NCBI RefSeq assembly: GCF_002056295.1
Contig: NZ_CP020100.1
Location: forward strand, 2,937,501 to 3,001,500
DNA length: 64,000 nt
Reading direction: 5' to 3'
Origin: Halopseudomonas phragmitis
GTDB taxonomy: Bacteria > Pseudomonadota > Gammaproteobacteria > Pseudomonadales > Pseudomonadaceae
Part shown: positions 26,480 through 45,514 of the stretch, in pieces
How positions within the stretch are numbered: position 1 is the stretch's first letter
Layout of the letters: each line of letters starts with the position of its first letter
Notes under the pieces: generated by a model
Seen by the model: the letters and a program-made list of their open reading frames with translations, nothing else
The model's database searches: none
What the model was told of the DNA's origin: nothing
Program-made: the position numbers and the translations under genes

Positions 26480-26555
<76 letters not shown>

Positions 26556-26562
26556 AACATCG

Positions 26563-26600: not shown

Positions 26601-26789
26601 TATTGCCTGTTGCCCTTCTACTGACCTGCTGCGACAGCTCACTTCTTTGCCCCCGTCGTGAGGCAATTACCTAAGACTAATGTCGGGGATTCACTCTTAA
26701 GCGTTCTTTAGCAGAATGAATTCACGGAAGACTCCAGCGTTCGTGGAATTTCCCAATTTGGTCTTAACAAGAAAGTGGAGAGCAATACG

Positions 26790-27047: not shown

Positions 27048-27051
27048 GAGA

Positions 27052-28815: not shown

Positions 28816-28860
28816 GAGTAATCCTGAGCGTAGTGCTATGCTGCGCTCATGACTCAACCC

Positions 28861-28890
28861 GCGGGCTTCCTCTTCGGAAGCCCGCCTTGT
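28861..28890 (+). terminator. Terminator after the symporter operon
   Basis: A perfect 10 bp stem (gcgggcttcc 28861-28870 with ggaagcccgc 28876-28885), loop tcttc, followed by a T-rich tract. Confidence 0.8.
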
Positions 28891-28906
28891 TTTCGAGACA
28901 TACTTT

Positions 28907-29413
28907 ATGATCTGGCATTTGGTCGCACTGGCCGCAGCAGGTTTGGGGGCAGCAGGGATCGGGTTTCTGTTGCGAGCAGCATCTGGCAGGAAACTGCCGA
29001 AATGGATAGTTCCGGTCTTTGCCGGTATGGGGATGCTGACTTACCAGATCTACTACGAGTATTACTGGTTCGAGCACAAGCAGAGCCAACTGCCTGCAAG
29101 TTCCGTGGTGGTCGCTACCGAACAGCAGCAGGCGATCTGGCGGCCCTGGACCTATCTGCTGCCAATGACGGTCGGTTTCAGTGTGGTGGATCGCAGCAAC
29201 CTGACAGAAGTCCAGCTGGATGACAATCGGATCAAACGTTTCATCCTGTATCGCTTCCAGAAAGAGTACGTGGATCTGGTCAGCCACCAGCCTCATCTGC
29301 TCAACTGTGACACTCAGGAGCTGGTCCCAGAGGCCGATGACGGCAGCCTGCGGCCTGAGCTGATGCGTAAACTGGATAGCGACGATCCATTGTATCTGGC
29401 TGTTTGCCGCTAG
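28907..29413 (+). CDS. Conserved membrane-anchored hypothetical protein
   Basis: 168 residues. Two transmembrane segments near the N-terminus (about 3-24 and 33-50) are followed by a soluble domain with VGFSVVDRSNLTEVQLDD and a C-terminal CR. It follows the symporter terminator, so it probably uses its own promoter or readthrough. Comparable proteins occur next to VC_2705-type symporter genes; no function is known to me. Confidence 0.65.
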   Translation: MIWHLVALAAAGLGAAGIGFLLRAASGRKLPKWIVPVFAGMGMLTYQIYYEYYWFEHKQSQLPASSVVVATEQQQAIWRPWTYLLPMTVGFSVVDRSNLTEVQLDDNRIKRFILYRFQKEYVDLVSHQPHLLNCDTQELVPEADDGSLRPELMRKLDSDDPLYLAVCR

Positions 29414-29450
29414 GGCGCAAAGCAAGTGCAGTGAAGTTCTCAGACTGCGC

Positions 29451-29479
29451 TTGCCAAGCACCAGCAATTAGGACATAAT
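29451..29479 (+). promoter_or_regulatory. Putative sigma-70 promoter for tRNA-Cys
   Basis: TTGCCA (29451-29456), 17 bp, CATAAT (29474-29479). It lies 122 bp before tRNA-Cys and would replace the promoter lost when tRNA-Cys was separated from tRNA-Gly. Confidence 0.55.
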
Positions 29480-29601
29480 GCTGCCCGTCGACAGCAAGGC
29501 AGCAAAAATGCCAGTCTTATCAATAGGATAAGATCATTTTTTGAGCAAAGCCGGTTCGACGCCGTTACGCGATCTCACCCACTGCGTAATGGTCCCTATG
29601 A

Positions 29602-29675
29602 GGCCGGGTGGCAGAGTGGTTATGCAGCGGATTGCAAATCCGTGAACGCCGGTTCGATTCCGACCTCGGCCTCCA
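29602..29675 (+). tRNA. tRNA-Cys (anticodon GCA)
   Basis: A 74-base cloverleaf with encoded CCA. Acceptor GGCCGGG pairs with CTCGGCC; the anticodon arm is GCGGATTGCAAATCCGT with GCA at 29634-29636; the T-arm is GCCGGTTCGATTCCGAC. Equivalent to cysT in the ancestral glyW-cysT-leuZ order. Confidence 0.97.
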
Positions 29676-29686
29676 TTTATTTCCTC

Positions 29687-29726
29687 GCCCGGATGGCGAA
29701 ACTGGTAGACGCACGAGACTTAAAAT
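29687..29726 (+). pseudogene. 5' half of a split tRNA-Leu (UAA) gene
   Basis: Forty bases give the acceptor 5' strand GCCCGGA, the D-arm and the anticodon 5' stem CGAGA with loop CTTAAAA (anticodon TAA at 29721-29723). After ACTTAAAAT at 29718-29726 the sequence no longer pairs. The missing half is at 42895-42951, with T-arm GCCGGTTCGATTCCGGC and acceptor TCCGGGC matching this half. Joining the halves gives a sound 88-base tRNA-Leu. The gene is therefore broken by the integrated element at its anticodon loop. Confidence 0.92.
29718..29726. other. attL core of the integrated element
   Basis: ACTTAAAAT, identical to the sequence at 42895-42903. It covers the anticodon loop of the interrupted tRNA-Leu. 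The flanks differ on the element side (TACC here), so the shared core is 9 bp. Confidence 0.8.
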
Positions 29727-29829
29727 TACCTGTGTCCTTGCCGACTCCGCACCAGATGGGCACCCCGGAACCCGTTCCGGGACACGTTGATGACGAGTAA
29801 CAAAAGGCCGTAACCTGTTGTTTTTACAA

Positions 29830-29914
29830 GCCCGGATGATGAAACTGGTAGACATACCGGACTTAAAATCCGGAGCCGAAAGGCGTGCGGGTTCGATTCC
29901 CGCTCCGGGCACCA
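29830..29914 (+). tRNA. tRNA-Leu (anticodon UAA), element-borne replacement copy
   Basis: A complete 85-base class II tRNA with encoded CCA: acceptor GCCCGGA/TCCGGGC, anticodon arm CCGGA-CTTAAAA-TCCGG with TAA at 29864-29866, long variable arm, T-arm GCGGGTTCGATTCCCGC. It starts 104 bp inside the left end of the element. It differs from the interrupted host gene in the D-arm, anticodon stem, variable arm and T-stem, so it is not a simple duplicate. It would supply tRNA-Leu(UAA) while the host gene is split. It contains the att core sequence ACTTAAAAT (29861-29869) as well. Confidence 0.95.
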
Positions 29915-29963
29915 GCACCTCGCGCACCGTCCAGCGAACCGTCTTGGCGGGCGCACACCTCCC

Positions 29964-30443
29964 ATGAGCATCGACGACGCCACCCTCGCCAAGGCGCGGG
30001 CCGCTTGGGACGCCTGCCTCCAGCAGGAGCGCGAAGCCCAGGAGGCGCAGCAGCGCCTGACAGCAGCGCGGAAGGAAGTCGCCACATTCCACCGGCGCAT
30101 GACTGCCGCCTGGGAAAACCTCTCCGAAGAAGCACGCGCACAGGTGGCATGGACGGCACAGCACACCGCTGGCGCTGCCCCTGTCGAGGCCGCTCTGCTC
30201 ACCCTCCAAGAAACTGTCGAGACCGTCCTATTCGAGGTGGGCCGCAAGCGCCGGGGTCACTACTCAGGCGTCAGCTTGGAGGCTATCCGTGCGGTCGCCC
30301 GAGCGCTGGTCATCCGTAGCTACGGCAGCAGCCAGCGGGCGAATCCCTTGCCCGACGAGAGCCGACTCCTGGCCGTGTGCAAGGCGCTCGACGCCCGCGT
30401 GACGTTACGCAACGTCCGCAACGCTCTCAAGACCCGCAAATAG
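29964..30443 (+). CDS. Hypothetical coiled-coil protein of the element
   Basis: 159 residues starting MSIDDATLAKARAAW; the first 55 residues are rich in Ala, Gln and Glu heptads (coiled coil), the C-terminal part is basic (KTRK end). It begins 49 bp after the replacement tRNA-Leu and may be on the same transcript. No ribosome site of note. I do not recognise a family. Confidence 0.55.
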   Translation: MSIDDATLAKARAAWDACLQQEREAQEAQQRLTAARKEVATFHRRMTAAWENLSEEARAQVAWTAQHTAGAAPVEAALLTLQETVETVLFEVGRKRRGHYSGVSLEAIRAVARALVIRSYGSSQRANPLPDESRLLAVCKALDARVTLRNVRNALKTRK

Positions 30444-30553
30444 CCCTCGAAAATCGCACCCTATTGGCGGGTCTATGTGCCCAGGGCTGCGCCTGAGAAA
30501 GTTCGCTCCACACGAGGCAGCGCGGTGCCGCCTCGGTTCATCAGGAGTGCAAC

Positions 30554-30943
30554 ATGGATACCACCAAACTCATTCGCATACAGCGCCAGGTCTCAATTTC
30601 CCGTCAAGCTCGCAAACAGAAGCCGCTTCCATATCTCCACGCGAACATTTTGTCTGTCCTGCAGATGAGCCCCTATGGGCTTACCGTGGAGCGGATATGC
30701 GAGGCCGTTGGGAGAACTCAACGGTCTGTTCCGACCGTCCGGGAGGCGCTTTACGAGCTGATGTATGTGGAGGGCTACCCAATCTTCGCTGAGCGTTGGG
30801 GGTACTTTGTCCTGCGTGAACGCGCTCCCGAATTTCGGACTAACGGTGATTCAGTGAGCAGTTTTCACGACAGTCTGGACATAGACGATGACGACCTCTG
30901 GGCTCAATATCCTCCGACTCAATCGTCGAAGGATGGTTGCTGA
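30554..30943 (+). CDS. Small winged-helix-like protein of the element
   Basis: 129 residues with AGGAG eight bases before the ATG. Residues about 27-80 (ANILSVLQMSPYGLTVERI, then EAVGRTQRSVPTVREALYEL) read as a winged helix-turn-helix. The tail is acidic (DSLDIDDDDLW). A role as a transcriptional regulator of the element is plausible but not demonstrated. Confidence 0.6.
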   Translation: MDTTKLIRIQRQVSISRQARKQKPLPYLHANILSVLQMSPYGLTVERICEAVGRTQRSVPTVREALYELMYVEGYPIFAERWGYFVLRERAPEFRTNGDSVSSFHDSLDIDDDDLWAQYPPTQSSKDGC

Positions 30944-31175
30944 GGGTTTCTGGCCTCGTGTCCCTTGCGGGTGCCCGGTCTCCCTGGGCTTGGCAGGCGC
31001 TGCACGGTTCGCCCGACAAACAGCGAACCGCCTGGGCCGAGCTGGCCCAGCGGGGCAGCCCGCCCCGCTGGGCGAATCTCAGCAAGTGCATGATGCTGTT
31101 GCCTTTTCTCCGCTCTGCTCAATGATTCGGTCATCGGCGGCGGTCGCGCTGCCGGAACAGAAAAGGAGAGCCACC

Positions 31176-31712
31176 ATGATCCGCATTGCTGACGTCACCA
31201 TCACCCGCTTCGCCGACCTGAACGAAGTCTCCACCGCCGACCTGCTGGCCTACTACAACAGCGTCACCGGCAAGAACACCAAGCAATTCCTGAAACGCGC
31301 CAAGGGCATGCAGCAGGTCTGGGCCTTGATCGCGCCGCAGCTCGCCCAGGTCGAAGGGGCTGCCCAGGAGGAGCCCGCCGAGGTTACGCCGGAGCAGGCC
31401 GAGAGCGTGCAGGAGCCCGCCACCCTGGCCACCGTGGAGGCAGCCCCCGCCACCGCGCCTAGCACCGCCGAGGAGCCCGCAGAGGGCGCAGCCACCGCCG
31501 AGGCCAAGGCCAAGCCCGCCGGACTCAAGGCCCGCGTGGAAGACCTCCTGGCGGCCCTCGCCAGCGGCCCGCGTACCGTCGCCGAGCTGGCCGGGGCGCT
31601 GGGCATGGAACAGAAGAAGGTGCGTTCCACCATCGACACTGCCCGCCGTGTCGGCCACACCATCGCCTGTGTCGGGCGCGGAACCTTCGCGCTGCCAGAA
31701 GCGGCCCAGTAA
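31176..31712 (+). CDS. Two-domain protein with Ala/Pro/Glu linker and C-terminal winged helix
   Basis: 178 residues from ATG 31176, with AAAGGAG eight bases upstream; the frame is open further left but without a ribosome site. An N-terminal domain (MIRIADVTITRFADLNEVS through about residue 55) is joined by a low-complexity Ala-Glu-Pro-Thr linker (about 60-115) to a C-terminal winged helix (residues about 117-175: RVEDLLAALASGPRTVAELA ... GRGTFAL). The N-terminal TADLLAYYNSVTGKNTK segment recurs in proteins of mobile elements. Probably DNA-binding; role unknown. Confidence 0.65.
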   Translation: MIRIADVTITRFADLNEVSTADLLAYYNSVTGKNTKQFLKRAKGMQQVWALIAPQLAQVEGAAQEEPAEVTPEQAESVQEPATLATVEAAPATAPSTAEEPAEGAATAEAKAKPAGLKARVEDLLAALASGPRTVAELAGALGMEQKKVRSTIDTARRVGHTIACVGRGTFALPEAAQ

Positions 31713-31865
31713 GTCGCAGTTACTCGCGGGTGCCCGTCTGCCCAGGGCTGGCGGCACCCAAGGGTGCAGCGAACCGTGCGAGCGCACTGTCTGATGGCCA
31801 AAAAGAACCCCGGCGCTTTGCAGGGCCGGGGCGAAGGTGCAGTCGGAGCAACAGGAGTGGAACGA

Positions 31866-32147
31866 TTAGACCGGCAGCATGACCTCGTGGCCGCCACGGC
31901 CCAGGTGCGGCAGCCCTTCGGCGTTGCCGGGCTGGCTCACGGGCGGATGGCCCTCAACAGCGAAGGCGGTCGTCGCGCCGATCTCAACAATAGCGAAGTT
32001 GTCGAAGGCGTCGATCTCCACACGCTTGCACAGGGCGCGGGCGGCAGCCGGAGCGGAAGCTGCATCGGCAGCGGGCACGACGATGGCGTTCAGGCCATCG
32101 GCGCGACGGAAGTGCGGTTCAGCGGGGTACAGCAGGAAGGTAGCCAT
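31866..32147 (-). CDS. Hypothetical protein, last gene of the element's leftward operon
   Basis: 93 residues starting MATFLLYPAEPHF, with GAGGAG ten bases upstream of the ATG. Two bp separate it from the stop of the preceding gene, so it is translationally coupled. Ala-rich central part; no family recognised. Confidence 0.6.
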   Translation of the reverse strand: MATFLLYPAEPHFRRADGLNAIVVPAADAASAPAAARALCKRVEIDAFDNFAIVEIGATTAFAVEGHPPVSQPGNAEGLPHLGRGGHEVMLPV

Positions 32148-32149
32148 GG

Positions 32150-32521
32150 TTAGATCTCCTCAGAGGCTTGGATGAAACGAAGGTTGGCGCGGAGTCGGCC
32201 TCCGAGCTGGCGGAACACGAACAGGCCGGGTTCTTGGGTGCGATCCACGATGCCGGGGCCGTGTGCGCCCTGCTCGGCGTCGGCCCAGCCGTCGGCGTAG
32301 CCCTTCAGCGGCAGATAGCCCAGGAACGGCATCACGCGCTGGGCGTTCGCTCCGGCCAAGGTGCAGCAGGTGCGGGCCGTCTTCACGTCCGGGCGGTCTT
32401 TGCCGTGGGCATGCGCCATCAGGCAGGCAGAAGCCAGGGCGGCGGCGTCGCGGTCGTCGAGGGTGTCGATGATCCGCTGGGCCAGCTCGGCGTCGGTCAG
32501 CGATTGGAGATGGGCGTTCAT
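32150..32521 (-). CDS. Hypothetical protein of the element's leftward operon
   Basis: 123 residues; N-terminal helix MNAHLQSLTDAELAQRII, then CLMAHAHGKDRPD and a C-terminal LGGRLRANLRF segment. It overlaps the upstream gene by 4 bp (ATGA), typical of phage-like morphogenesis operons. No function recognised. Confidence 0.6.
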   Translation of the reverse strand: MNAHLQSLTDAELAQRIIDTLDDRDAAALASACLMAHAHGKDRPDVKTARTCCTLAGANAQRVMPFLGYLPLKGYADGWADAEQGAHGPGIVDRTQEPGLFVFRQLGGRLRANLRFIQASEEI

Positions 32522-33234
32522 TCGTCACCCCCTTCAGCACCAGCAGCGGCTTCACGGTCGCGCAGGGCGCGTTCGATGCGGGCGGTCGGGTTGGTGGTGC
32601 CATTCACGACTTCGCCGTAAAGCGACAGGCCATCAGCCAGGGCGGCCTCGGCTTCCTCGAACTCGACCATCGGCGCGAACACCTCGTGCTCTTCGGGGAA
32701 GATGTCGAGGACGGCTGCCGGGTGGAACGGGCGCTTGTCGGTCGGCATACCCGAGACCACAGCGATAACAGCGGCGGCCAGCTCGGCGTCGCCCAGGGAG
32801 GCGGCACGCTCGGCGGCGTTCTTCAGGGCCACCGGGCCAGCACTGGCGAGGTTCTGCGTGTAGGTGGCGCGGCGCGGGCTGCCCAGGGTGGCGGCATCCA
32901 GCGCGGAGAACGGGTTGTCATAGACGCCCTTGCCCAGCTCCAGCACGTTGCGGGCGGTCGCCAGATCCTTTGCCAGGCGCTCGGCGGTCTCCTTCGCGGC
33001 GGCCCGCTGGGCTGCGACCAGGGTGTCGGCCTTGCGCTTGGCGAAGGTCTGGCGCTCCTGGGCGGTCATGGTGATCTTGGAGACTTCCTCCATCGCACGC
33101 TTCTGGGCAATTTCGCGGGCGTCGGTCAGCGACTTGCGCAGGCTCTGGAGGTTGGTGGCGTGGGACTTCAGGATGGAGCGAAGTTCCTGCACGTTCGCAC
33201 GGGACGGGATTTTCTTCAGATTCAACTTGGACAT
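32518..33234 (-). CDS. Helical coiled-coil protein of the element
   Basis: 238 residues from ATG 33234 (AAAGGTG upstream; a GTG three codons earlier overlaps that site). Residues 15-110 form a long, charged coiled coil (SLRKSLTDAREIAQKRAMEE and following), and the C-terminal half is Ala-rich with an acidic end. The layout recalls scaffold-type or structural phage proteins, but nothing specific supports that. Confidence 0.65.
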   Translation of the reverse strand: MSKLNLKKIPSRANVQELRSILKSHATNLQSLRKSLTDAREIAQKRAMEEVSKITMTAQERQTFAKRKADTLVAAQRAAAKETAERLAKDLATARNVLELGKGVYDNPFSALDAATLGSPRRATYTQNLASAGPVALKNAAERAASLGDAELAAAVIAVVSGMPTDKRPFHPAAVLDIFPEEHEVFAPMVEFEEAEAALADGLSLYGEVVNGTTNPTARIERALRDREAAAGAEGGDE

Positions 33235-33368
33235 GCTTCTCACCTTTGAGAAATCGGAGCCGAACCATTTCGGCTTCCTTGGTGAGAATCATTCCTGTCT
33301 CTGGCCGCGTCGGCTCTCAGTTTTTAGCGGGGCGCGAGTGGCCCAGGAAGGCCACAGCTAACGTCCAG

Positions 33369-33635
33369 TTACCCCAGGCGGCCCCGCCGGATGGGCGCTC
33401 CAGGCTGCTGGACTGTTCGCCCCGGCGCATCGCGCACTGCCCTGGGCACAGGGATGGGCAGGCGGGTGGTGCCTCGGGCCTTCTCCCCATAGGCTGCCTC
33501 CCAGCGGTCGAGCCCTTCCTCGTCCTGCCGGTAGTCCGGCATCAGGAAGCCGAACGGGGTTCGCCGGGGCGGCACCCCGGCTTCCTCCTCGAAGCTGACA
33601 AGCCCCTCCACCTGGGCCAGGAAGTCGCCGATCAT
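33369..33635 (-). CDS. Small hypothetical protein downstream of the TerS-like gene
   Basis: 88 residues; the ATG overlaps the TerS-like stop codon (ATGA), so translation is coupled. Features are an acidic N-terminus and a C-terminus rich in Arg and Pro (GAPIRRGRLG). Function unknown. Confidence 0.55.
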   Translation of the reverse strand: MIGDFLAQVEGLVSFEEEAGVPPRRTPFGFLMPDYRQDEEGLDRWEAAYGEKARGTTRLPIPVPRAVRDAPGRTVQQPGAPIRRGRLG

Positions 33636-34261
33636 GCTTCCGCCTCCAGCAGCCCAGCGGGCTCCGGTTCTACCTCCAGAAGGTCGCCCCGTGCCAGCGC
33701 AATCTCGGTGAGCAGGCCCAGGAGCTGCTGGCGCTTGCCTTCGTCGAGCAGCAGCACGTCCTCGGGCTTCAGTGTCAGCGCGTGCCCGCCGTACAGCTCC
33801 TGGGTGACGTTCAGGTTCGCGCTCAGTTCGACGGCCCGGCGCTCGATGTACTTCTGCGGGAGGAGCGCCTTGGCACGCAGCTCCAGCAGGCGGTCGCTGT
33901 ACTTCGTCACCGTCCCGACCAGCTCGCCCTTCTGATAGACCGGCTCGTCGTAGCCCTCCACAGCGCGGCGGTGAATCTCCAGCTCCACGCTGCCGGTCGC
34001 CTGCTCGATGGCGTCATCCCACGCGGCGGCGAACTCGGGATCGTTTTTCCGCAGGATGTAGAACGAAGGGGCGCACGTCCCCTTAGCGTGTGGGCTGGCG
34101 GCCCGAGCGGCGGCACTCACGATTCCGTGGCGGCGTAGCTCCGACAGGAAGACCTCCTTGCGCTCCTCGGTCAGCGCAGCCATCGGTACCCGGTCGCCCC
34201 GTTTCCGGCCCACAGGTGCGCCGGGGCGTGCCCCGCCTCCAGTCTTCGGCTTGATACTCAT
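33632..34261 (-). CDS. Terminase small subunit-like protein
   Basis: 209 residues starting MSIKPKTGGGARPGAPVG at 34261, with GAGAGGG about ten bases upstream. A basic N-terminal tail precedes a helix-turn-helix-like segment (LSELRRHGIVSAAARAAS), then DPEFAAAWDDAIEQATGSVE, HRRAVEGYDEPVYQKGELVG and YSDRLLELRAKALLPQKYIE. This succession is typical of phage terminase-small-subunit-like proteins, which bind the packaging site and load the large subunit. No large terminase gene is present in the element. In phage satellites a private TerS redirects the helper's packaging machine to satellite DNA; that role here is inferred. Confidence 0.75.
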   Translation of the reverse strand: MSIKPKTGGGARPGAPVGRKRGDRVPMAALTEERKEVFLSELRRHGIVSAAARAASPHAKGTCAPSFYILRKNDPEFAAAWDDAIEQATGSVELEIHRRAVEGYDEPVYQKGELVGTVTKYSDRLLELRAKALLPQKYIERRAVELSANLNVTQELYGGHALTLKPEDVLLLDEGKRQQLLGLLTEIALARGDLLEVEPEPAGLLEAEA

Positions 34262-34262
34262 C

Positions 34263-34598
34263 TCAGTGTCCCTCTCCAAACTGGGCCACCGCACGCAGGC
34301 GGATGGCCTCATCATCAACGGATAACGCGCTCGTGAAGAGCTGGCGCTGTCGTGCCCAGGAGCCCCGCCTGTCTGTCAGGAACCGTCGCGCCGTTCGGAC
34401 GAGATGCTCGGGCGTGAAGCCTCCGCTTCCCTTCGCGTACTTCACCGTTTCGGGCGTCGCGTTTGCGTCGTTCCATGCCTGGAGAAGGACGGCAGCGGCG
34501 AGCTGGCGCTCGGGGCTGTCGTGGGCTTCGTCCTCGTCCTGCTCGATTCGGTGCAGGTCGATTCCTCTCTGGGCTGGTGCGCGGGCGGTCAATGTCAT
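34263..34598 (-). CDS. Hypothetical protein, first gene of the TerS operon
   Basis: 111 residues; ATG at 34598 with AAGGA seven bases upstream. Its stop codon is one base before the ATG of the TerS-like gene, so the two are coupled. Features are a His/Glu/Asp-rich stretch (residues 14-30) and a C-terminal Arg-rich helix. No recognised domain. Confidence 0.6.
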   Translation of the reverse strand: MTLTARAPAQRGIDLHRIEQDEDEAHDSPERQLAAAVLLQAWNDANATPETVKYAKGSGGFTPEHLVRTARRFLTDRRGSWARQRQLFTSALSVDDEAIRLRAVAQFGEGH

Positions 34599-35002
34599 GC
34601 GGGTTCCTTGGTGCTTGCGTTCTCAAGGAAATGATCTCGGCCCAGCGGTGGCGGCGATATCAGTTTTGGCAGGTAGCGACAGGCCCAAGAAGGCGCTGCG
34701 CGGTGCGCTCCACGGTCGGCAGCGGCTGGCCCAGGGTGGTGGGCTGGTCTCGCTGGCGGGGCGTGGTAACTCGAACTTACCGGGGCGTTCCGCTACACCT
34801 CCTAGGCGGGCCTAGGGGCGGCGGCGCGGCCCAGGCAGGCCAGCGGCTGGGTGCGGCCCTGGCGGGCGCTCTCGGTGCTGCGAGGGCGGCCCAGGCGGCG
34901 GGATGCGCAGGCGGGGTGGCTCCCGTGCGCGGGCGCGATGTGTCAGTTGAAATGGATATGTCAGGAGTAGCAGCCGGGCCGGGCCGTGCTGCCCAGCAGC
35001 GG
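34599..35002. other. Non-coding segment with direct and inverted repeats (candidate promoter/packaging region)
   Basis: No supported gene lies between 34599 and 35347. This left part holds ggtaactcgaacttacc at 34765-34781, an inverted repeat whose reverse strand resembles a tRNA T-arm, flanked on both sides by the direct repeat GGGGCGT. It also holds GC-rich palindromes (cctaggcgggcctagg, 34801-34816) and several GGCCCAGG words. It immediately precedes the TerS operon and must contain its promoter. A packaging site is possible but unproven. Confidence 0.35.
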
Positions 35003-35275
35003 GAAGTAGCGGGCGGGAATTCCCGTGTTATTCCGCACTGCGGGAAACGCCCAAACCCTGTAGCTACGGGGCTCCTAGCCGGTTATTTCCCGTTTTCCCT
35101 CTTTAAGTAAAGAGAGGAAAAAGGAGTAGCACCACACTGCTGTGGTGCACTGCACTGCTACTGGGCAAGTTGCACTGCCGGAACGGGAAAGCGGGAACAT
35201 TCCCGGCGCAAACCCTGTAGCCACGCGGCCTAGCGGGTTTCCCGGCGGGGCGGGAAATTGGCGTTCCCGTTCCCG
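35003..35275. other. Putative replication origin of the element (iterons around an AT-rich core)
   Basis: Many GGGAA/TTCCC words occur in both orientations in two clusters (about 35001-35100 and 35180-35275). Each cluster carries a copy of a longer repeat beginning AAACCCTGTAGC (35053 and 35210) followed by nACG, CTAGC, GG and TTTCCCG. Between the clusters is an A/T-richer core with the inverted repeat CTCTTTA/TAAAGAG (about 35099-35114) and a GCACCACA/TGTGGTGC hairpin (about 35129-35148). The site lies just 3' of the primase-helicase gene, the position of the origin in SaPI-type satellites. Function is inferred. Confidence 0.55.
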
Positions 35276-35302
35276 CCCTGGGCAGCCCAGCCGTGCATAC
35301 GC

Positions 35303-35329
35303 AAAAAGGCCGCCTCGGTGGGCGGCCTC
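35303..35329 (-). terminator. Terminator of the primase-helicase gene
   Basis: On the minus strand, GGCCGCC-caccga-GGCGGCC is followed by TTTTT (plus-strand A run 35303-35307, stem 35308-35314 with 35321-35327). It lies 19 bp beyond the primase stop and separates that gene from the putative origin. Confidence 0.88.
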
Positions 35330-35347
35330 CTGCAAGCGTGTTGGACG

Positions 35348-38002
35348 TTAGGCCGTTGCGCTTCGCACCAGAGCGAGAATCCGCTCCCGAAGGTCGGCGT
35401 TCTGGAGTGCCTGGAACACCTCCCACTCGTCGCCCGTCATGTGCTCGACATGCGAGACATCATCGTCGCCCAGGTCGTCGGAGGGGTGATCCTGGATGGA
35501 GTACGGCAGCCACTTTTCCACCGGCTCCTCCCACTGACAAGGCGCACCGGAGAAGGCATTCCAGGCTTCCCGCGCACGCTCCACCGACCCGCTCAGCATG
35601 ATGCGACGCTTGTTACCAGTGACCTTCGCCTTGCGGAACCCGAGCTTGGCGAACTCCTTCTCCAAGTCTTCGACGCTGACCGGGCGGGTCTTTAGGCGCA
35701 TCCCGATCCACTGGGCCAGCTTGTCCGGGTGGAGGCCGACTTCGCCAGTCTTCTTCACATGAACCATCCGCTCGGCATAGCCCGGATTCGCCTCGTTCGG
35801 CAGCCATTCAGGCGGAAGTTGCCCCGTCCGGAACATCTCGCGGATGAAGCCGCGAATCGGCCCGAGGCTCCGTGCCTGCTGCTCTTCCAGCGCCCGCGTC
35901 CGAGGCACAGCGCGGACGTTGAAGTCGCTGATGTCGTAGTGCATCAGGAAATGCAGAAGGTTCTCACGCCCGCCAGCTTCCATAGCCCGGTTCAGTTCGC
36001 CGAAGTAGGCGGTGTCCTGCATCCGTTCAGAGCCAACATCCAGCACGAAGAACCGGCGCTCGAACTCCCCTGCGGGCACGACCCAGGCTTCGTTCGAGGC
36101 CATGATGATGTGCAGGCAGTTCCGGGCAGCCTCCGTGTCGAAGCCCTTACGCTCGATGGCGATTGTTTCCTCCGTAATGAGAGACTTGAGCGTGGATTCG
36201 TGCCTCTTGTCGCCCGCGTAGAGTGCTTCGTCGCCGAACAGCACGACGCAGTCGCGCAGGTGGGCGTTGAAGTTGCCAGTAACGTGGCGGGAGTCGGTAA
36301 CAGGCAGGTAGTGCCGCCCGAACAGCCCGCCGAACACCTTCGCAAGGAAGCCCTTACCCGTGCCACGCTTGCCCCGCAGGACGACGGCCACCTCTCCTGG
36401 GCAGCCCGGCTGCTGCACCGCCCGCGCCATCCAACCGAGCAGGTAGCGATAGTGCTCCTCGTCGCCCGAACAGACGTTATCGCGAATATGGTCCAGGAAC
36501 GGCAGGTGCTTGTCTCCGGCGGCAGCATCCACCGCGAACCCCTTCCAGGTGTTGTACACGTCGGGCGGGGTGTCTTGCCCAGGGGCGAAAGTGACCCGCT
36601 CGTACTGGCGACGGTTCGGGTGCGCCAGCCACCAAGCCCCAGCGGGCTTCGCGACCGGGTTGCCCTTGGCGTCGGTGCCCAGATCAACCATGACGTTGAG
36701 GAAGCGGTTCTTGAAGTCGGCGAAGCTCTGCGCCACGAGATTGACTCGCCCGAGCCCTTCGTCGGTCACTTCGCTGACCACAACGCACTTGCCCCCGAAG
36801 TTCCCGACGACAGCGAACTCCTCGTTGAGCTTGCGCAGCATCGGATGGATGGAGTCCTCGTGCGCCCGTTCGATCTGGCGCAGGGCGTATTTCTCCGGGC
36901 GCTTGTGTTCCACCACGGACTCAGCGATGCCGAACGACTCGTCGGTGAGCACCGAGAAAATCACCTCGTCGGGCACCCCCTGGCGCACCAGTTCGCACGT
37001 GCAGGCAAAGAGCGCCTCGGAGCGGCTCGGGTACTTGGTGGGGTTGTCGGGGTCGTTGCCCTGGACGATGAGAACCTTCAGCCAGTCCGGCACGTTCCAT
37101 TTGTCGAGGGCATCCACCGACTCCAGGCGTTCCACCTCGTCCAGCGAGACAGCGGCGAGAGCCGCGCCACGAGCGCCCACCGTAGCTGGCGCGGCGGCAC
37201 CCTGGGCCGGAGCCTGCTGGAAGCTCTCCAGCCCATAGACGCGCTCGGGGTACAGCTCCACGAGGGTGGCCGGGGCGGCGGTGCGGCCCTTGGCCCGCTT
37301 CTTGGCGTCCGGGTTGTTGATGCTGCCCGGCAGGCGCAGGATGCGATCCACGTTGTGGCAGTTGTCAGCCCCGCCGGACTCGCCCTTGCCGAACACGCCC
37401 TGAATCCAGCGGGTGTAACGCTCGGCCTCTACCGCCTGGGCCTCGGAACCGTCCAGGAGGATTGGCTCGCGCAGCGCCCACAGCGCCTGGGCACCAGCGC
37501 CGGAGCTGATGATTGCGGTGGGCGGCGGCAGCTCCTTCGGCAGGTTGTGCGTCAGGCGGCCGATGATGCGCTGGCGCTCCTCGCCCACGTCCTCCCCGGC
37601 ACGCGGGTCGATATCCACGTGCAGGAAGCGCACGGCGGTAACGTCCGACTTGGCGGCCTTCTTCTCCAGCCCGTCGCGGGTGGGGTTCAGGTGGTAATAG
37701 ACGTTGTTCTCGGCGTTGCCCGCCAGCCAGGCAGCCAGCTTGGCCTCTTGCCCAGGGACGAACAGCTTGGGCCGGAACACCTTCTTCTCGGGGCTGGCAT
37801 ACGAGAGCAGCCACGGGCCTTCCGGGCGGAGCCACTGCAAGAAACTGACAGCGGCGGCGGTGTCGATGATTGCCGGGGCAGCCTGTGCCACCGAGAATTC
37901 AGCTTGAGTATCGCTTCCTTCTCGCTTTGCTCCGAAAGCCCCGTCTTCTGTCGCCCCGGAAGCGGGGCTTTCACCTTTTCGGGTGTCCAGAAAATCGCTC
38001 AC
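35348..38002 (-). CDS. Primase-helicase (Prim-Pol plus SF3 helicase), satellite replication protein
   Basis: 884 residues. The N-terminal part has the archaeo-eukaryotic primase-polymerase pattern: metal-binding FLHVDIDPRAGED near residue 128 and RILRLPGSINNPDAKK near 215. The C-terminal half is a DUF5906-type superfamily 3 helicase with Walker A RGKRGTGKGF near 544, Walker B VVLFGDEAL near 587 and motif C IIMASNEAW near 634. Such bifunctional proteins start and drive replication of plasmids, phages and PICI satellites from a nearby origin. It overlaps the AlpA-like gene by 4 bp and is followed by a terminator and the iteron region. Confidence 0.9.
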   Translation of the reverse strand: MSDFLDTRKGESPASGATEDGAFGAKREGSDTQAEFSVAQAAPAIIDTAAAVSFLQWLRPEGPWLLSYASPEKKVFRPKLFVPGQEAKLAAWLAGNAENNVYYHLNPTRDGLEKKAAKSDVTAVRFLHVDIDPRAGEDVGEERQRIIGRLTHNLPKELPPPTAIISSGAGAQALWALREPILLDGSEAQAVEAERYTRWIQGVFGKGESGGADNCHNVDRILRLPGSINNPDAKKRAKGRTAAPATLVELYPERVYGLESFQQAPAQGAAAPATVGARGAALAAVSLDEVERLESVDALDKWNVPDWLKVLIVQGNDPDNPTKYPSRSEALFACTCELVRQGVPDEVIFSVLTDESFGIAESVVEHKRPEKYALRQIERAHEDSIHPMLRKLNEEFAVVGNFGGKCVVVSEVTDEGLGRVNLVAQSFADFKNRFLNVMVDLGTDAKGNPVAKPAGAWWLAHPNRRQYERVTFAPGQDTPPDVYNTWKGFAVDAAAGDKHLPFLDHIRDNVCSGDEEHYRYLLGWMARAVQQPGCPGEVAVVLRGKRGTGKGFLAKVFGGLFGRHYLPVTDSRHVTGNFNAHLRDCVVLFGDEALYAGDKRHESTLKSLITEETIAIERKGFDTEAARNCLHIIMASNEAWVVPAGEFERRFFVLDVGSERMQDTAYFGELNRAMEAGGRENLLHFLMHYDISDFNVRAVPRTRALEEQQARSLGPIRGFIREMFRTGQLPPEWLPNEANPGYAERMVHVKKTGEVGLHPDKLAQWIGMRLKTRPVSVEDLEKEFAKLGFRKAKVTGNKRRIMLSGSVERAREAWNAFSGAPCQWEEPVEKWLPYSIQDHPSDDLGDDDVSHVEHMTGDEWEVFQALQNADLRERILALVRSATA

Positions 38003-38250
38003 AGGCCACCCCCTTTGGTTTCAAAGCGGGGCTGCGCCAGGACGAAGGCGTCCAGCTCGTGAATGTCGTACAGGACAACGCTGCCGAACTTGCGGTACGG
38101 CGGGCCTTTTTTCAGCTCGCGCAGTCGGGCGAGGTGCGGCACGGAAACGCCCAGGTACTCGGCAGCTTCACGGGCGCGGAGCCACCGCTTCGGGACGTTG
38201 AAGGAGATTTCTTCGGCGAGGTCGCCGTCTTGGGCAGGGACGTTGGACAT
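37999..38250 (-). CDS. AlpA/excisionase-like helix-turn-helix protein
   Basis: 83 residues from ATG 38250 (an in-frame extension upstream lacks a ribosome site). Residues about 28-75, WLRAREAAEYLGVSVPHLAR then YRKFGSVVLYDIHELDAFV, form a MerR/excisionase-type winged helix. In satellites and P4-like elements AlpA activates integrase, excision or replication genes. Its stop overlaps the primase start (ATGA), so the two are one transcription unit whose promoter must lie in 38251-38654. Confidence 0.85.
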   Translation of the reverse strand: MSNVPAQDGDLAEEISFNVPKRWLRAREAAEYLGVSVPHLARLRELKKGPPYRKFGSVVLYDIHELDAFVLAQPRFETKGGGL

Positions 38251-38654
38251 GAGAGTCTCCGAATCTGATGTCGCCAAGATCCGGAGCCGCCCCGAGACAA
38301 TGCCGGGCGAAGCATGAGAACCCACTCGGCGGGAACGGGTTCGGCTGTTAGCTGCGGACTGCCACCGCTACTGGTCGGCCCTCCGTAGGCCGTCCTGGTT
38401 CGTCCTGTCGATTCAGGCACGCTCTCGCTAACGCCCCCAATTATCTGGCATCTACGCTCCCAGCCGCAACAGGACAACCGTTCCTCCTGACACCGGCCAG
38501 CGCCATTCCTGAGATGTCATGAGAAAGGTACGCGGTCGGTCTCGCGGTGCGCGCACTGCCCAGGGAGCGCCAGCGGCCCGCCAGACCATGCCAGAGTGGT
38601 AACGCGGCGTTACCCGGTTATGCGCTCAGCTTTCTGCGCTAGACGGACTGCCCC
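38251..38654. promoter_or_regulatory. Divergent control region between AlpA-primase and the restriction endonuclease
   Basis: 404 bp with no supported gene. It must hold the leftward AlpA promoter and the rightward promoter of the endonuclease gene. I see a CCTG-tcgatt-CAGG dyad near 38403-38416 but no convincing LexA-type site (CTG-N10-CAG) and no clear sigma-70 boxes. The sequence becomes visibly more A/T-rich to the right, where the cargo starts. Confidence 0.4.
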
Positions 38655-39569
38655 ATGGCCCATATCATGCATGCTGAATCAATTCTTGGGGGCATGGATG
38701 TGCTTGCATGGGGCTCGATAACTACTAACAACGCATTGAATGCGCTGACTTCTGCACTGCAACCGCTTTGTGGCGTGCAAGTAAACTATCTTCAGCTTCC
38801 GGCTGATCTCGCCTTGCAGATCGAACCATCTCAGGTGGGAACAATTGTTGGGACCCTGACTGACCTTCTTCTGCCGCGCATTGCGCTTGAGCAGGGTATT
38901 GGCCTAACGAAGGCAGCGGGAATTCTGGGTGACCGGGAGGGCTACCCCGATTTCGAGCATAACTCCGGGTATCGAATTGAGTTGAAGGGAGCCTTCCGGG
39001 ACAACCCCCATGTGCCGATGAAGAGGCCGCCAACCCCCAGAGAGCCGTCAGCACGCCTCACACAGAAAGTTACCGTTAAGAACGTTGATCCAGACAGGGA
39101 TGCCTTACTGATACTGGTCTATGAACTGCGACCAACTCGTAATGACCCTTCTCTTCTTTCGCCAACCATTGTTGATCTTGGGTTATTCCCAGTCATCGAG
39201 TGCATAAATGCGCGTGACCATCGCATGATAAGCGGCGGAGGCCGGTGGTTTGGAAACTATGAGACGCCCACAATCCTCAGCAAGGCGGGAAAGAGGGCTA
39301 TCGCAGGCGGGGTGTCCTTGAATTCAAATGGATACGGTCGGAAGGAAAGTGAAGGCTATCACTTCAACGAAGATACCAACTTTGGAAAGCTGAAGCGCAT
39401 ACCATATCGCCCGCTCCAGGAGTTTCTGAAGCGGGCGGGCTGTCAATTTGCAGCTACAGGGAGTTACCCGGTGTCGTGGTCAATGTCGAAGCAGGACCAA
39501 GAGTTCGCGCTGGCCCTCGATATGACGGCGGAGAACGGTAGTGATTCTCTCGCAGATCCCAACTTCTAG
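38655..39569 (+). CDS. Putative restriction endonuclease (PD-(D/E)xK)
   Basis: 304 residues. Residues about 96-113, YPDFEHNSGYRIELKGAF, fit the PD-x(n)-(D/E)-x-K nuclease signature (Asp then Glu-Leu-Lys), and the protein sits opposite a methylase/specificity gene pair. Together these point to the endonuclease of a type II system with a type I-like methylase, as in AhdI. The gene converges on the specificity gene, and the two overlap by 90 bp at their 3' ends (39480-39569). Base composition is more A/T-rich than the rest of the element. The assignment rests on the motif and context; family identity is unverified. Confidence 0.65.
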   Translation: MAHIMHAESILGGMDVLAWGSITTNNALNALTSALQPLCGVQVNYLQLPADLALQIEPSQVGTIVGTLTDLLLPRIALEQGIGLTKAAGILGDREGYPDFEHNSGYRIELKGAFRDNPHVPMKRPPTPREPSARLTQKVTVKNVDPDRDALLILVYELRPTRNDPSLLSPTIVDLGLFPVIECINARDHRMISGGGRWFGNYETPTILSKAGKRAIAGGVSLNSNGYGRKESEGYHFNEDTNFGKLKRIPYRPLQEFLKRAGCQFAATGSYPVSWSMSKQDQEFALALDMTAENGSDSLADPNF

Positions 39570-40109
39570 GTAGCGCTCTCCTACCGGCGAGTTCAGCAGG
39601 AGGTCAATGCTGATGCGCGGGTGATGCCCGCCTGTCGCGGCGGCAGAAAGCATTTCCTGTATGGGCTCGCTAAGCAACCATGCGACCAGTCCGGCAATAC
39701 TTCTACCTTCCTCAAGCGAGCGCAAGACGAAGAACTCCGTCGAGCAGTAAAGGTGGTCAACGCCAAGAAGATCACACGTACCGGGCGGAATAAACGTAAC
39801 TTGCCGGAGATAGGGGCGGAGGCGTGAAATGATTACGTCCCCGTCCCTAATAATCTTTTTGTTACTTGTTCGTCCGGAGACCGGATCGCCCAGGATCGTA
39901 ATGTCCAGCAGTCCTTCGCGAGCATTCCCCGTGTCGAGCACAAATCGGGCGTCTTCCGGCGGAATCTGCGTCTGAGTGATGGACTGCACAATCTCGCTCA
40001 AGAGTTTGCCGTCCGCAAGCTGGCTTGCGGTCTCGCTGGCGAGCCAGTGCTCTGGCGAGAGGCTGAAGTCAGCACCTGTTTCTGAGAACGATCGAGTTAT
40101 CCAGCGCAC
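39480..40109 (-). CDS. Half-size type I-like DNA specificity subunit (single TRD)
   Basis: 209 residues, about half of a normal HsdS (400-450). It shows one target-recognition domain with WLASETASQLADGKLLSEIV, GDVIISRLRPYLRQVTFIP near residue 92 and a helical spacer at the C-terminus (ICERITTVLRRHIEGQRELL). A subunit with one TRD must act as a dimer and would recognise an interrupted palindrome, as known for the AhdI methyltransferase. It overlaps the upstream methylase gene by 13 bp and the convergent endonuclease gene by 90 bp. Confidence 0.8.
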   Translation of the reverse strand: MRWITRSFSETGADFSLSPEHWLASETASQLADGKLLSEIVQSITQTQIPPEDARFVLDTGNAREGLLDITILGDPVSGRTSNKKIIRDGDVIISRLRPYLRQVTFIPPGTCDLLGVDHLYCSTEFFVLRSLEEGRSIAGLVAWLLSEPIQEMLSAAATGGHHPRISIDLLLNSPVGERYLEVGICERITTVLRRHIEGQRELLVLLRH

Positions 40110-41302
40110 ATTACGCTCCTAATACGGGGTGCAATCTCATCAAGGTCATGGTCGAGCGAGCGGTACGCCGGTGCGTCAGTATCGGCATCGGGTCGGTAGT
40201 TCGGCGAGCCGTTACTAGATTTTCCTGCCGCATCCGAGCGGAAGAAGTGAACCTCGGACTCATAGGGTGAGAGTGAGGGGGCTTGCTTGACTGCGAAGAT
40301 GACTGCTGCCTTTTGCGTGGTGTAGGGCAGAAAGGTGTAACGGTGGAGGCTTACCACCGCTCGGATTTCGCTGTTCTTGCCCAACCAAAGGCGCACATCA
40401 CGAAAGACACGGCTACTCACTTTGTTATCGGGGAGGACAATGGCAAGCCGCCCTCCAACTTTAAGCAGTCGGATGCATCTTTCTATAAATAAAACGTCAC
40501 GCTCAAGGCGCTTCCCTGAAACCCTAGCAACATCATAGGCGGCGGAAAACGTCTCTGCCGCGACATCGCCTGCGAATGGGGGGTTGGTCAAAATAACATC
40601 GAAGCCTGGGAAATCTGGTCCCATGAGAGCTTCAATCGTGTCGCCCGCTTCGCCCAAGAGGGTTCGTTCTGGTAATCGTAGGCTATCAACCTGTTCAACG
40701 TTGATAGCACCCTTAGTGCCGATGAGTGAGACAACTTTAGCGACTTGGCAGGCTCGATGTGAGTAGTCGAAACCGTAAAGGCTAGACGCGTTGCCGTACT
40801 TCTCGATGCCGTAGCTGTGCGCGGATTTGAGAAATGCAGCGCTGCCGCAAGCTGGGTCGCAAACCAGTTCGCCCGGCTTGGGATCAACTGCTTCGACACA
40901 CATGTCGATAACGTGACGGGGGGTGAAATACTGTCCCTTGTCAGCTTTGTAGGAACGGCTTGTTAGCTGCTCGAACGCTTGGTCGAGAGCGGTGAAATCT
41001 TGCCCTCGGATACTAGTCGTACCGAAGACCCTGCGAACTTCATCGAAGATGCTATCAGGGGTCTGAAGCTCTAGTACGCCATCGAGAATAAACGCGATTT
41101 CTGGGCCGTGTTCCGTGAGGAGCTGGTCACAGCTTGTTTTGTCGGGCAGCTCCGTCTGTCCGTTTCCTTCTGCAAAATACTTAGCCAGGATCAGCCTGAT
41201 GATTTCATAGAACTCATCCACCCCGCTGTTGGCCATGATGATCTCCTGCATCCGGCGGATGCGGGAGACGAAATCTACCCCGAATTGATGTCTTTTTGCC
41301 AT
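40097..41302 (-). CDS. N6-adenine DNA methyltransferase, HsdM-type
   Basis: 401 residues taking ATG 41302 (MAKRHQFGVDFVSRIRR); the frame extends 22 codons further to a TTG without better support. Motif I is DPACGSAAFLKSAHSYG near residue 170, the target recognition and flanking motif KGQYFTPRHVIDM near 145, and the catalytic motif IV is ILTNPPFAGD near 240. It is shorter than type I HsdM (about 500) and fits methylases that pair with a half-size S subunit. It protects host and element DNA from the endonuclease at 38655-39569. Confidence 0.88.
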   Translation of the reverse strand: MAKRHQFGVDFVSRIRRMQEIIMANSGVDEFYEIIRLILAKYFAEGNGQTELPDKTSCDQLLTEHGPEIAFILDGVLELQTPDSIFDEVRRVFGTTSIRGQDFTALDQAFEQLTSRSYKADKGQYFTPRHVIDMCVEAVDPKPGELVCDPACGSAAFLKSAHSYGIEKYGNASSLYGFDYSHRACQVAKVVSLIGTKGAINVEQVDSLRLPERTLLGEAGDTIEALMGPDFPGFDVILTNPPFAGDVAAETFSAAYDVARVSGKRLERDVLFIERCIRLLKVGGRLAIVLPDNKVSSRVFRDVRLWLGKNSEIRAVVSLHRYTFLPYTTQKAAVIFAVKQAPSLSPYESEVHFFRSDAAGKSSNGSPNYRPDADTDAPAYRSLDHDLDEIAPRIRSVMCAG

Positions 41303-41440
41303 GTGACGAGTGACGACCGTGCTGTTGTGACCTAGGTCATTATTATGGAGGTGGCCTTCAGAAGGCAATAGGTAAGTCCCATTGGGGTGGCGAAAACGAT
41401 CTCGCTACCCGTTGCGGGTCGCCTGGGCGCCCCTGGGCTG

Positions 41441-42718
41441 TTACGCCACAGCCCGCCTAGGGAAGGCTAGGACGTTGCCGTGAATTTGGCCCAGGAGGTA
41501 GGCCGAAACGCGGCCCTGCGCCTCTCTGAGCGTTGCTCCAAGCGCCGAGCCGTGGATGTAGCCGCCCGTTACGCCCGGCAGTTGGTGGTTGAGCAGGAGC
41601 TTGATCGTGAAGGGGTCTAGCCCAACGGCTGCGGCGGCGGTCGCGTAGGAGTGGCGCAGAGCGTGCGGATTCACCAGTCCAGCGTGCCTGACGTGGGACT
41701 GGGTGAGGTGCCCCTTGCCCGAGGTGTGCGACGGGAAGAGCCACGGGTAATCCTTGCCGAAGACCTCGGCGTTCTCCTTGACGCGCTGGCGCACCATATC
41801 CACGAGGAAGGCCGACAGCGGCAGGTCGAAGGCCCGCTTCGGCCCGCCCTTCGGGTTGGGCACGTGCAGGAAGCCGTTCTCCAAGTCCAGGTGCTCGATG
41901 CGGGCCTCGCTGGCGGCACCCCGGCGCATGCCGGTGAATGCCAAGAACAGATACCAGTCTCGCGTCACCGGGTTGCGAAGCCCCTGCACCGCTGCCCAGA
42001 AGGCGGGCCAGTCGGTAACGATGACATCCCGGCGCTTCTCGTCATTGAAATCCACCGCGTCGGTGGGCGGCGGCGGGAGGTCTCGCATCTTGCGGCGGGC
42101 GTGCCGATAGACAGCCCGGACGAGGCGCATGGTCTGGTTGGCAGCCACTGGCCCGTTGTTCTTGGTAATGGTGCGGTGGCGCTCATCCACGCCCAGGGTG
42201 TCGTCGCCGATCTCGCGCAGCGGGCGGTCGGCCCAGTCCTTGAGGTAACGCTCGAACAGGTTCCGGTAGCCCAGGACGGTGCTCGGGCGGCGGGCCTTGC
42301 GCTCGCAGCGGTCGATGTAGGAGTCTAGCGCCTGGGCGAAGGTGAATTCCTTCTTCGGCTCTGGCAGCGCCTCGGGCTCGGCGGGCTTGTTCGGGTCGAT
42401 GCCTGCCCGGAGCTGGTTGATGACCTCCTGGGCCTTCGCCCGGACGGCCTCGATGGACAGGAAGCCCTTGGCGTCGCCCAGGCGAACGCGGCGGGTGCCG
42501 AGCTTCACGCGGCGGCCTTGGGCGTCGCGCTCCTCGGAGTACAGGTCGCGCTGGACAGCGAACGACTTGGAGTTCGCATTCACGACAACCATCAGCCCAG
42601 GGACGAGGGTGTCCCGGACGGAGTACGATAGGACGCGCCCGGAGGTTGGGTCGCGCTCGGCGTGCGGCAGGTTCTCGACGAAGCGGATCGTGAGCTTGGT
42701 AGGTGCGAAGGTTGGCAT
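41441..42718 (-). CDS. Tyrosine recombinase (integrase) of the element
   Basis: 425 residues from ATG 42718 with GGAG eight bases upstream; an in-frame extension upstream is not needed. The N-terminal DUF4102-like arm-binding part (about 1-110) is followed by a SAM-like core-binding domain (about 125-220) and the catalytic domain with Arg in FTGMRRGAASEARIEHLD, HALRHSYATA (HxxR) and the nucleophile Tyr in GVTGGYIHG. It recombines attP with the anticodon loop of tRNA-Leu. The gene lies 176 bp from attR and reads inward. Confidence 0.95.
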   Translation of the reverse strand: MPTFAPTKLTIRFVENLPHAERDPTSGRVLSYSVRDTLVPGLMVVVNANSKSFAVQRDLYSEERDAQGRRVKLGTRRVRLGDAKGFLSIEAVRAKAQEVINQLRAGIDPNKPAEPEALPEPKKEFTFAQALDSYIDRCERKARRPSTVLGYRNLFERYLKDWADRPLREIGDDTLGVDERHRTITKNNGPVAANQTMRLVRAVYRHARRKMRDLPPPPTDAVDFNDEKRRDVIVTDWPAFWAAVQGLRNPVTRDWYLFLAFTGMRRGAASEARIEHLDLENGFLHVPNPKGGPKRAFDLPLSAFLVDMVRQRVKENAEVFGKDYPWLFPSHTSGKGHLTQSHVRHAGLVNPHALRHSYATAAAAVGLDPFTIKLLLNHQLPGVTGGYIHGSALGATLREAQGRVSAYLLGQIHGNVLAFPRRAVA

Positions 42719-42894
42719 GGCGGTGCTCCAGTTGTTGGCCCAGGGTGGCGAACCGTCCGCGAACCGTGCAGGTGCCGGACTAGGTATGCCTCTGGATGCC
42801 GAACTCTTGGCCAAACCGCCTTCGCAGCCAATCATTTTGTTGAGATGCGGAGCCTAAATGCCTCTAACTGCCGCCAAATGATGGCAAAATTTGA

Positions 42895-42903
42895 ACTTAA
42901 AAT
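42895..42903. other. attR core of the integrated element
   Basis: ACTTAAAAT, identical to attL. Upstream (element side) the sequence TTTGA does not pair with the 3' anticodon stem TCTTG, whereas the host 5' half at 29714-29718 (CGAGA) does. Confidence 0.8.
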
Positions 42904-42951
42904 CTTGCGGTCATTGCGACCGTGCCGGTTCGATTCCGGCTCCGGGCACCA
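42895..42951 (+). pseudogene. 3' half of the split tRNA-Leu (UAA) gene
   Basis: Begins in the anticodon loop and continues through the 3' anticodon stem TCTTG, long variable arm, T-arm GCCGGTTCGATTCCGGC, acceptor TCCGGGC and ACCA. It complements the 5' half at 29687-29726 and is the downstream remnant of the host gene. Confidence 0.92.
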
Positions 42952-44422: not shown

Positions 44423-44465
44423 TCCGTTGGCAGTCAACTAAACGCAACACAAGGAGATCCACATC

Positions 44466-45461: not shown

Positions 45462-45471
45462 GCGCAAGCAT

Positions 45472-45499
45472 CTGGACCCGGGCTTTGCCCGGGCTCCAG
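45472..45499 (+). terminator. Hairpin between fapC and fapD (attenuator or mRNA stabiliser)
   Basis: CTGGA-CCCGGGC-TTT-GCCCGGG-c-TCCAG forms a 12 bp stem with a single bulge. There is no T run, so it probably lowers readthrough or protects the fapABC 3' end rather than fully terminating, allowing more fibril subunit than export protein. Confidence 0.6.
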
Positions 45500-45514
45500 T
45501 AGAGGAGGGCTGCA

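Follow-up and report, generated by a model that had tools for sequence, protein, structure and literature searches.

What becomes of a bacterium when a mobile element cuts its only gene for a tRNA, and what then stands in for that gene? The question is raised by a stretch of 64,000 nucleotides from Halopseudomonas phragmitis (NZ_CP020100.1, positions 2,937,501 to 3,001,500), here called the window and numbered from its first letter. In it, an integrated element lies inside a tRNA-Leu(UAA) gene and brings a complete tRNA-Leu(UAA) gene of its own. The best explanation overall, to which we assign a probability of roughly 0.9, is that a satellite-like element splits the host gene and supplies the replacement.

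The element extends from 29727 to 42903, about 13.2 kb. Immediately downstream of the host tRNA-Cys(GCA) gene (29602–29675, + strand) lies the 5′ half of the host tRNA-Leu(UAA) gene (29687–29726, +), and the 3′ half lies at the far end of the element (42895–42951, +). Both halves contain a 9-bp core, ACTTAAAAT, made up of the 7-nt anticodon loop CTTAAAA and its closing pair; the left copy (29718–29726, +) ends the 5′ half and the right copy (42895–42903, +) begins the 3′ half. The initial annotation had placed the halves and their shared core correctly to the base. In G018, of the same genus, the locus has an uninterrupted tRNA-Leu gene of 88 nt (L002:1598-1685; anticodon taa by ARAGORN), and joining 29687–29726 to 42904–42951 over the core reproduces all 88 bases. 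The ARAGORN reading took in ten loci, L001 being the window itself and the nine others relatives. It gave an intact tRNA-Leu(UAA) downstream of tRNA-Cys in all nine relatives. At the attL and attR junctions of the window ARAGORN listed no tRNA. An artefact of assembly or annotation, for which it might be said that a single assembly of the strain was seen, is scarcely credible given the exact core, the exact empty site and four further sequences, taken from other assemblies, in which tRNA-Leu(UAA) is split.

As had been noticed from the letters, the two halves still pair with each other, at 7/7 acceptor and 5/5 anticodon-stem positions. This would be expected if they were transcribed and joined in trans, the host tRNA still being made. 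Such joining strains belief: an intact copy makes it unnecessary, and the halves of a comparable tRNA-Thr case in G622 (see below) begin to mismatch (6/7 and 4/5).

The intact copy is a complete tRNA-Leu(UAA) gene at 29830–29914 (+), seen by both ARAGORN and Rfam. It is preceded by an element spacer (29727–29829, +) that measures 103 bp, not the 104 bp first given, and that is 95–98% identical in G415, G417 and G418. The host genome is a single contig of 4,035,153 bp, 100% complete, with 47 matches to RF00005 (40 distinct sequences), all 47 typed by ARAGORN. The tRNA-Leu anticodons among them are CAA, CAG, GAG and UAG, with UAA once, at 29830–29914. A pattern search of the same genome for the loop and T arm hit three places, namely the cargo gene, the orphan 3′ half and a tRNA-Phe gene. 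The genome-wide count on which the initial annotation had made its argument hinge is one, as neither the typed matches nor the pattern search gave a second tRNA-Leu(UAA). Since by standard decoding rules a tRNA with anticodon CAA does not read UUA, the gene at 29830 should be the only UUA decoder.

Could this gene be a native tandem duplicate, the element having landed in a redundant copy? Duplication of tRNA genes is common, and the two copies are adjacent. However, the nine relatives have one tRNA-Leu(UAA) at the site, G018 has no such spacer, and the cargo gene is only 77% identical to the host gene of G018. The spacer and tRNA moreover travel with the element to other families: in a related element of Gulbenkiania mobilis the identical 85-nt tRNA occupies the same place, the insertion site being outside any tRNA gene. 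A native duplicate is on this evidence very improbable. The original claim that the host gene is destroyed and an independent gene substitutes for it is thus supported; we found neither an uninterrupted relative without a tRNA-Leu at this position nor a second host tRNA-Leu(UAA) together with signs that the 29830 copy is native.

The arrangement recurs. Besides partial contigs, there are eight elements with 89–100% identical integrases: the window, three IMG/VR contigs and four named genomes. Both ends are readable in seven, L058 showing the right end only. Five of the seven (the window, G415, G416, Lysobacteraceae NML95-0200 and Pseudomonas duriflava) break the host tRNA-Leu(UAA) at this same core, and each brings a complete tRNA-Leu(UAA) of its own 102–103 bp inside; the two others are taken up with the points against our reading. 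An integrase profile (A2) run over 368 family genomes returned the same seven genomes as the other family search. Phage records held no relative of the integrase at 1e-30, and plasmids one match, of 35% identity. In the draft genome G418 the pattern search yields the orphan half and the cargo gene and nothing else. The P. duriflava draft has one more orphan tRNA-Leu(UAA) 3′ half on another contig (L196, G419:C35:5256), where ARAGORN sees no gene; it is likely the scar of a further element. On the G415 contig another integrase (L096:567-1685; PF00589, 2e-25) lies directly upstream of the split gene, and this tRNA-Leu(UAA) may be used by two elements.

Elements with related integrases do the same to a second isotype. 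Four of them with both ends read split a tRNA-Thr gene (CGU or UGU) and carry a replacement. In G622, a two-contig genome, tRNA-Thr(CGU) is split at the core ATTCGTAAT and a complete tRNA-Thr(CGU) begins 155 bp past the first base of the 5′ half; this element too has a primase and a small terminase. A pattern search of G622 for tRNA-Thr(CGU) gave three matches, the other two being orphan 3′ halves, one of which lies about 2.6 kb beyond attR (L205, G622:C1:1197900) and is probably a tandem remnant. L208 is a near copy of the G622 case with both ends read; L209/L221 (CGU) and L213/L224 (UGU) repeat the split and replacement, again at both ends, and L220 shows it at the left end only. Among nine loci with more distant integrases (L164 and L167 were left out), seven have a tRNA 3′ half beside the integrase, cut in the anticodon loop: tRNA-Thr in L158–L161, and tRNA-Arg, named by eye, in L163, L165 and L166. 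None was seen beside the integrase in L062 (G253) and L162.

In a scan of 65 viral loci, 22 rows held an intact tRNA, and six of these (five contigs) were flagged with an upstream 5′ half. Among the 16 unflagged, G416 fell one base past the cut-off and was counted separately, and L241 ends at a contig edge. Nothing in the other 14 pointed to a split and replacement; several of these were tRNA-Met, tRNA-Arg or other isotypes whose loci hold related primases or integrases. Our counts leave aside G253 (no tRNA in the stretches read), G857, G1114, G956, G973 and L210; L058, L211, L212, L214 and L215, which show the right end only; and L105/L239 and L241, whose left end is cut. What at first resembled a split tRNA-Arg(UCU) in G1089 was likewise not counted: an orphan tRNA-Arg(UCU) 5′ half there is followed, 127 bp further on, by an intact gene of the same kind (L184:9360-9563), and it is this intact gene, rather than the orphan half, that the attR half of the element matches. 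In L210 an intact tRNA-Thr(CGU) (9661–9736) lies about 265 bp from the integrase start, unlike in other relatives.

Conventional relatives also exist. G513, G524 and G503, with integrases 63–77% identical to that of G622, use tRNA-Thr(UGU) and have no extra half within 1500 bp upstream. In these three and in G420 a fragment in attP regenerates the target tRNA at one junction, which the window element does not do. In G420 (L123/L124/L185; C12 47727-81391) there is an apparent tandem, in which another insertion of about 20 kb and the conventional element share one tRNA-Leu(UAA), with an intact gene and two further 3′ halves.

Is the replacement then the point of the carried tRNA, or incidental? 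The tRNA might instead serve translation by the element or a helper phage, or evade tRNA-cutting defences. Such roles have been proposed for phage tRNAs, as the relevant passages of one study relate (PMC10865867). A search with left-end DNA matched 113 phage records, of which the best 20 cover only the tRNA stretch (10–11% of the query, 75–82% identity), and the anticodon stem differs in two cargo types, the loop in type 98. Against this, the isotype carried is the isotype broken in 10/10 split cases (Leu UAA, Thr CGU, Thr UGU; nine with both ends plus L220), and no complete extra tRNA was found in the elements of the four conventional relatives G420, G513, G524 and G503. Supply of a needed codon was rejected as the reason for the cargo tRNA, UUA making up 5 of 3159 codons in ten element open reading frames (ORFs). 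We consider these other roles improbable as the main explanation and keep to replacement of the broken host gene.

Why a whole gene should be carried is suggested by pairing. The 5′ half was matched with both possible partners in eight split cases. In every one it suits the attR half more closely than the 3′ half of the cargo gene: 12/12 pairs form with the attR half in seven cases and 10/12 in G622, where 6/7 are acceptor and 4/5 anticodon-stem pairs. The cargo tRNA pairs with itself at 7/7 and 5/5 positions in all eight. When 3′ halves are swapped among six host genes, up to 3/5 anticodon-stem and 2/7 acceptor pairs break, and some combinations fit fully. We infer that a complete gene removes the limit of stem matching that a borrowed 3′ half imposes, and that this could be the motive for carrying a whole tRNA. 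That Pseudomonadaceae, Lysobacteraceae and Chromobacteriaceae all harbour closely related elements agrees with such freedom; the agreement is weakened by the Chromobacteriaceae case lying outside a tRNA gene and by the existence of a conventional relative.

We picture the following course. The tyrosine integrase of the element would insert it into the host tRNA-Leu(UAA) gene at the anticodon loop. Because the attP core is only 9 bp, neither junction would rebuild the gene. The element would supply a complete tRNA-Leu(UAA) 103 bp inside its left end, oriented like the host Cys–Leu tRNA pair, to be expressed by read-through from the tRNA-Cys promoter or from a promoter of its own, and this tRNA would then decode UUA throughout the cell. 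The copy would be essential and the host addicted to it: precise excision should restore the host gene, any other loss being lethal or nearly so, and the host is probably no longer viable without the element unless it exits cleanly. A helper phage would mobilize the element. Where tRNA-Thr is the target, dependence may be milder, because other tRNA-Thr species could read the codon by wobble.

Several observations weigh against this account. A search for promoter or terminator consensus within 29480–30000 found none, so that the tRNA lacks a recognizable upstream promoter. UUA is used in the host, though rarely: ten host ORFs in the flanks have it 3 times among 3097 codons. The split genome is a single assembly, though its relatives repeat the design, and satellite status is read from gene content. 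Two of the seven elements with both ends readable behave differently. The G. mobilis element, with a cargo tRNA equal to that of the window base for base and a 103-bp spacer 98% identical, sits at a non-tRNA site that shares CTTAAAAT, the host tRNA-Leu(UAA) being intact elsewhere. In a metagenome-assembled genome of H. xinjiangensis (HyVt-324) the element is conventional: its left end is a 3′ half only, with another insertion apparently in tandem, an intact tRNA-Leu(UAA) follows tRNA-Cys, and no complete tRNA lies within the element.

The spacer itself gave little. The idea that it hides a decayed 3′ half was dropped, as 10 of 500 mononucleotide shuffles scored at least as high as the window type and 440 of 500 at least as high as the type 98 spacer, and the 103-bp sequence shows no special fold (z −0.29).

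The carried tRNA and the DNA around it do not vary together. Between the window and G415 or G418 the spacer is 96% or 95% identical and the downstream 300 bp 95% in both, whereas the tRNA is 79% identical (Fisher 2.8e-6 and 7.6e-6); G415 and G418 differ likewise from G417 (2.6e-7 and 1.3e-7). The G416/G419 pair is reversed, with identical tRNAs, a spacer of 94% and a downstream region of 60%. When the G416 type is compared with the window group, the tRNA is not singled out. Because identities diverge in this way, the tRNA and its flanks have different histories. The likely cause is recombination, with the tRNA exchanged as a cassette; fast compensatory change is a conceivable alternative. Set against three host genes, the three cargo types show 68–84% identity, and all of them come closest to the Gulbenkiania gene. 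The type 98 cargo tRNA-Leu(UAA) (L121, L098 and L241, the last with the complete tRNA) has the loop CTTAAAC, in which position 38 is changed and the att core is no longer matched; presumably the change may also spoil recognition of A36-A37-A38 by a modification enzyme.

The mode of integration has changed as well. The well-supported branches of a 23-row integrase tree cannot be explained by fewer than three changes between the conventional and the tRNA-carrying mode; eight rows are unlabelled, Gulbenkiania is counted as tRNA-carrying, long branches make the deep root uncertain, and the tree does not give the order of the modes. The mode labels show no more clustering than shuffled ones do (for the tRNA-carrying label, 167 of 500 shuffles were as low). 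We hold it an even question whether all this amounts to a proteobacterial satellite lineage with exchangeable replacement-tRNA cassettes, freed from stem matching, with hosts across orders that depend on it and with repeated switching of mode.

As to the element's genes, those from the integrase to an ORF of 241 aa are mostly on the minus strand. The tyrosine integrase (41441–42835, −; PF00589, phrog_1) is followed by an N6-adenine DNA methyltransferase (40097–41368, −; PF02384, type I or MAD2-like) and a specificity-subunit-like ORF (39480–40109, −; PADLOC Specificity_I, 1e-6). Next come an ORF of 304 aa on the plus strand (38655–39569), which has no family or solved-structure match and is restriction-endonuclease-like by eye only, and an AlpA/excisionase-like helix-turn-helix protein (37999–38325, −; PF12728, phrog_66). 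Beyond these are a DUF5906/VapE-like primase (35348–38002, −; phrog_1829, 5e-91; the P4-family primase model matched only weakly), a small terminase subunit (33632–34318, −; phrog_4044, 9.5e-35) and the 241-aa ORF, which has no family match worth naming (32518–33243, −). The left-end ORFs are on the plus strand; one of 159 aa (29964–30443, +) is kept beside the tRNA in relatives. The int, alpA and pri genes are all present, the AlpA assignment being an HTH_17/excisionase match only. Among 20 element ORFs scanned with PHROGs there were no capsid, portal, tail or large-terminase families. Because it has an integrase, an AlpA-like protein, a primase and a small terminase, with no virion family seen, the element looks like a phage satellite. 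Next to the integrase is a slot that holds the methyltransferase/specificity module in the window (38655–41368) and a methyltransferase in L058; in L059 (6025–7041) it holds a different ORF, GIY-YIG-like by eye with no Pfam match. This slot may be a place for variable cargo.

Outside the element, tRNA-Gly and tRNA-Cys are separated in the window by about 3 kb (26480–29675) that encode a DUF4212 protein and a sodium:solute symporter. In seven of the nine relatives the gap between these two tRNA genes is about 50 bp, and the other two loci show no tRNA-Gly. In the right flank (43841–46210), a protein with a C39 peptidase domain has as neighbours repeat-like secreted ORFs that match nothing in Pfam and, by eye only, resemble curli or fibrils.

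The closest known system is tRNA-dependent lysogeny, shown by experiment in the actinobacteriophages Fionnbharth, LeBron, Gaia and others (Guerrero-Bustamante and Hatfull, 2024; PMC10865867). As these phages are described in the passages of that paper used here, their cores are 8–17 bp long, close relatives (Boilgate, Ximenita, Omega) reconstruct their target, and integration at secondary sites is known. Its discussion calls the relation to canonical systems unclear, leaves open how frequent tRNA-dependent integration is outside actinophages, and there names only the Lactobacillus johnsonii prophage Lj965. The window element shares with these phages, so far as those passages go, a tyrosine integrase, an attB in a host tRNA gene, a short core, the lack of reconstruction, an element tRNA of the same isotype and close relatives that do reconstruct. 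The mechanism further implies that the host has no second gene of the broken isotype; apart from the element's copy, none was found in the host genome of the window. The element differs, by the same text, in a satellite-like carrier without recognized virion genes, in hosts from Gammaproteobacteria and one betaproteobacterium, in a tRNA 103 bp inside the att site, in the targets Leu(UAA), Thr(CGU) and Thr(UGU), and in cassette-like exchange. To judge from its sequence, it would work by the mechanism of tRNA-dependent lysogeny, without being phage lysogeny in the strict sense. With both modes present in one integrase family, it can be studied which way the switch went and what caused it.

In Sinorhizobium meliloti, integration inactivates a tRNA gene and an isoacceptor gene in the integrated phage-related DNA takes its place, as set out in portions of two reports (PMC11476347, PMC12429752). 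The carriers there, unlike the window element, are phage-related sequences of an alphaproteobacterium, and the phiLM21-like prophages in the consulted part of PMC12429752 show no substitution. With the phage-inducible chromosomal islands (PICIs) of gram-negative bacteria, as outlined in sections of PMC10111431, the element shares the int, alpA and pri set, here with a small terminase, and many PICIs target tRNA genes. According to the same sections, a replacement sequence in the PICI attP keeps the target working, whereas the window element, so far as genes alone tell, has a separate whole tRNA gene instead.

The crossover in the anticodon loop is also a listed subsite of Islander-type tRNA islands, in the part of PMC4383910 that treats them. 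Islander as presented there expects a regenerated tRNA gene and a displaced fragment; in the window both halves are orphans and the intact gene lies apart from them. Island finders that seek a rebuilt tRNA and a fragment could miss such elements. A search of the literature by titles and the openings of abstracts, with most subscription papers outside its scope, gave no report of tRNA-dependent lysogeny for phage satellites. A core gene of host translation would here be replaceable by a foreign copy and become part of a mobile element. What is new beside the known systems is that the carriers appear to be phage satellites of Proteobacteria, that the mode has switched repeatedly, and that the tRNAs appear to have been swapped.

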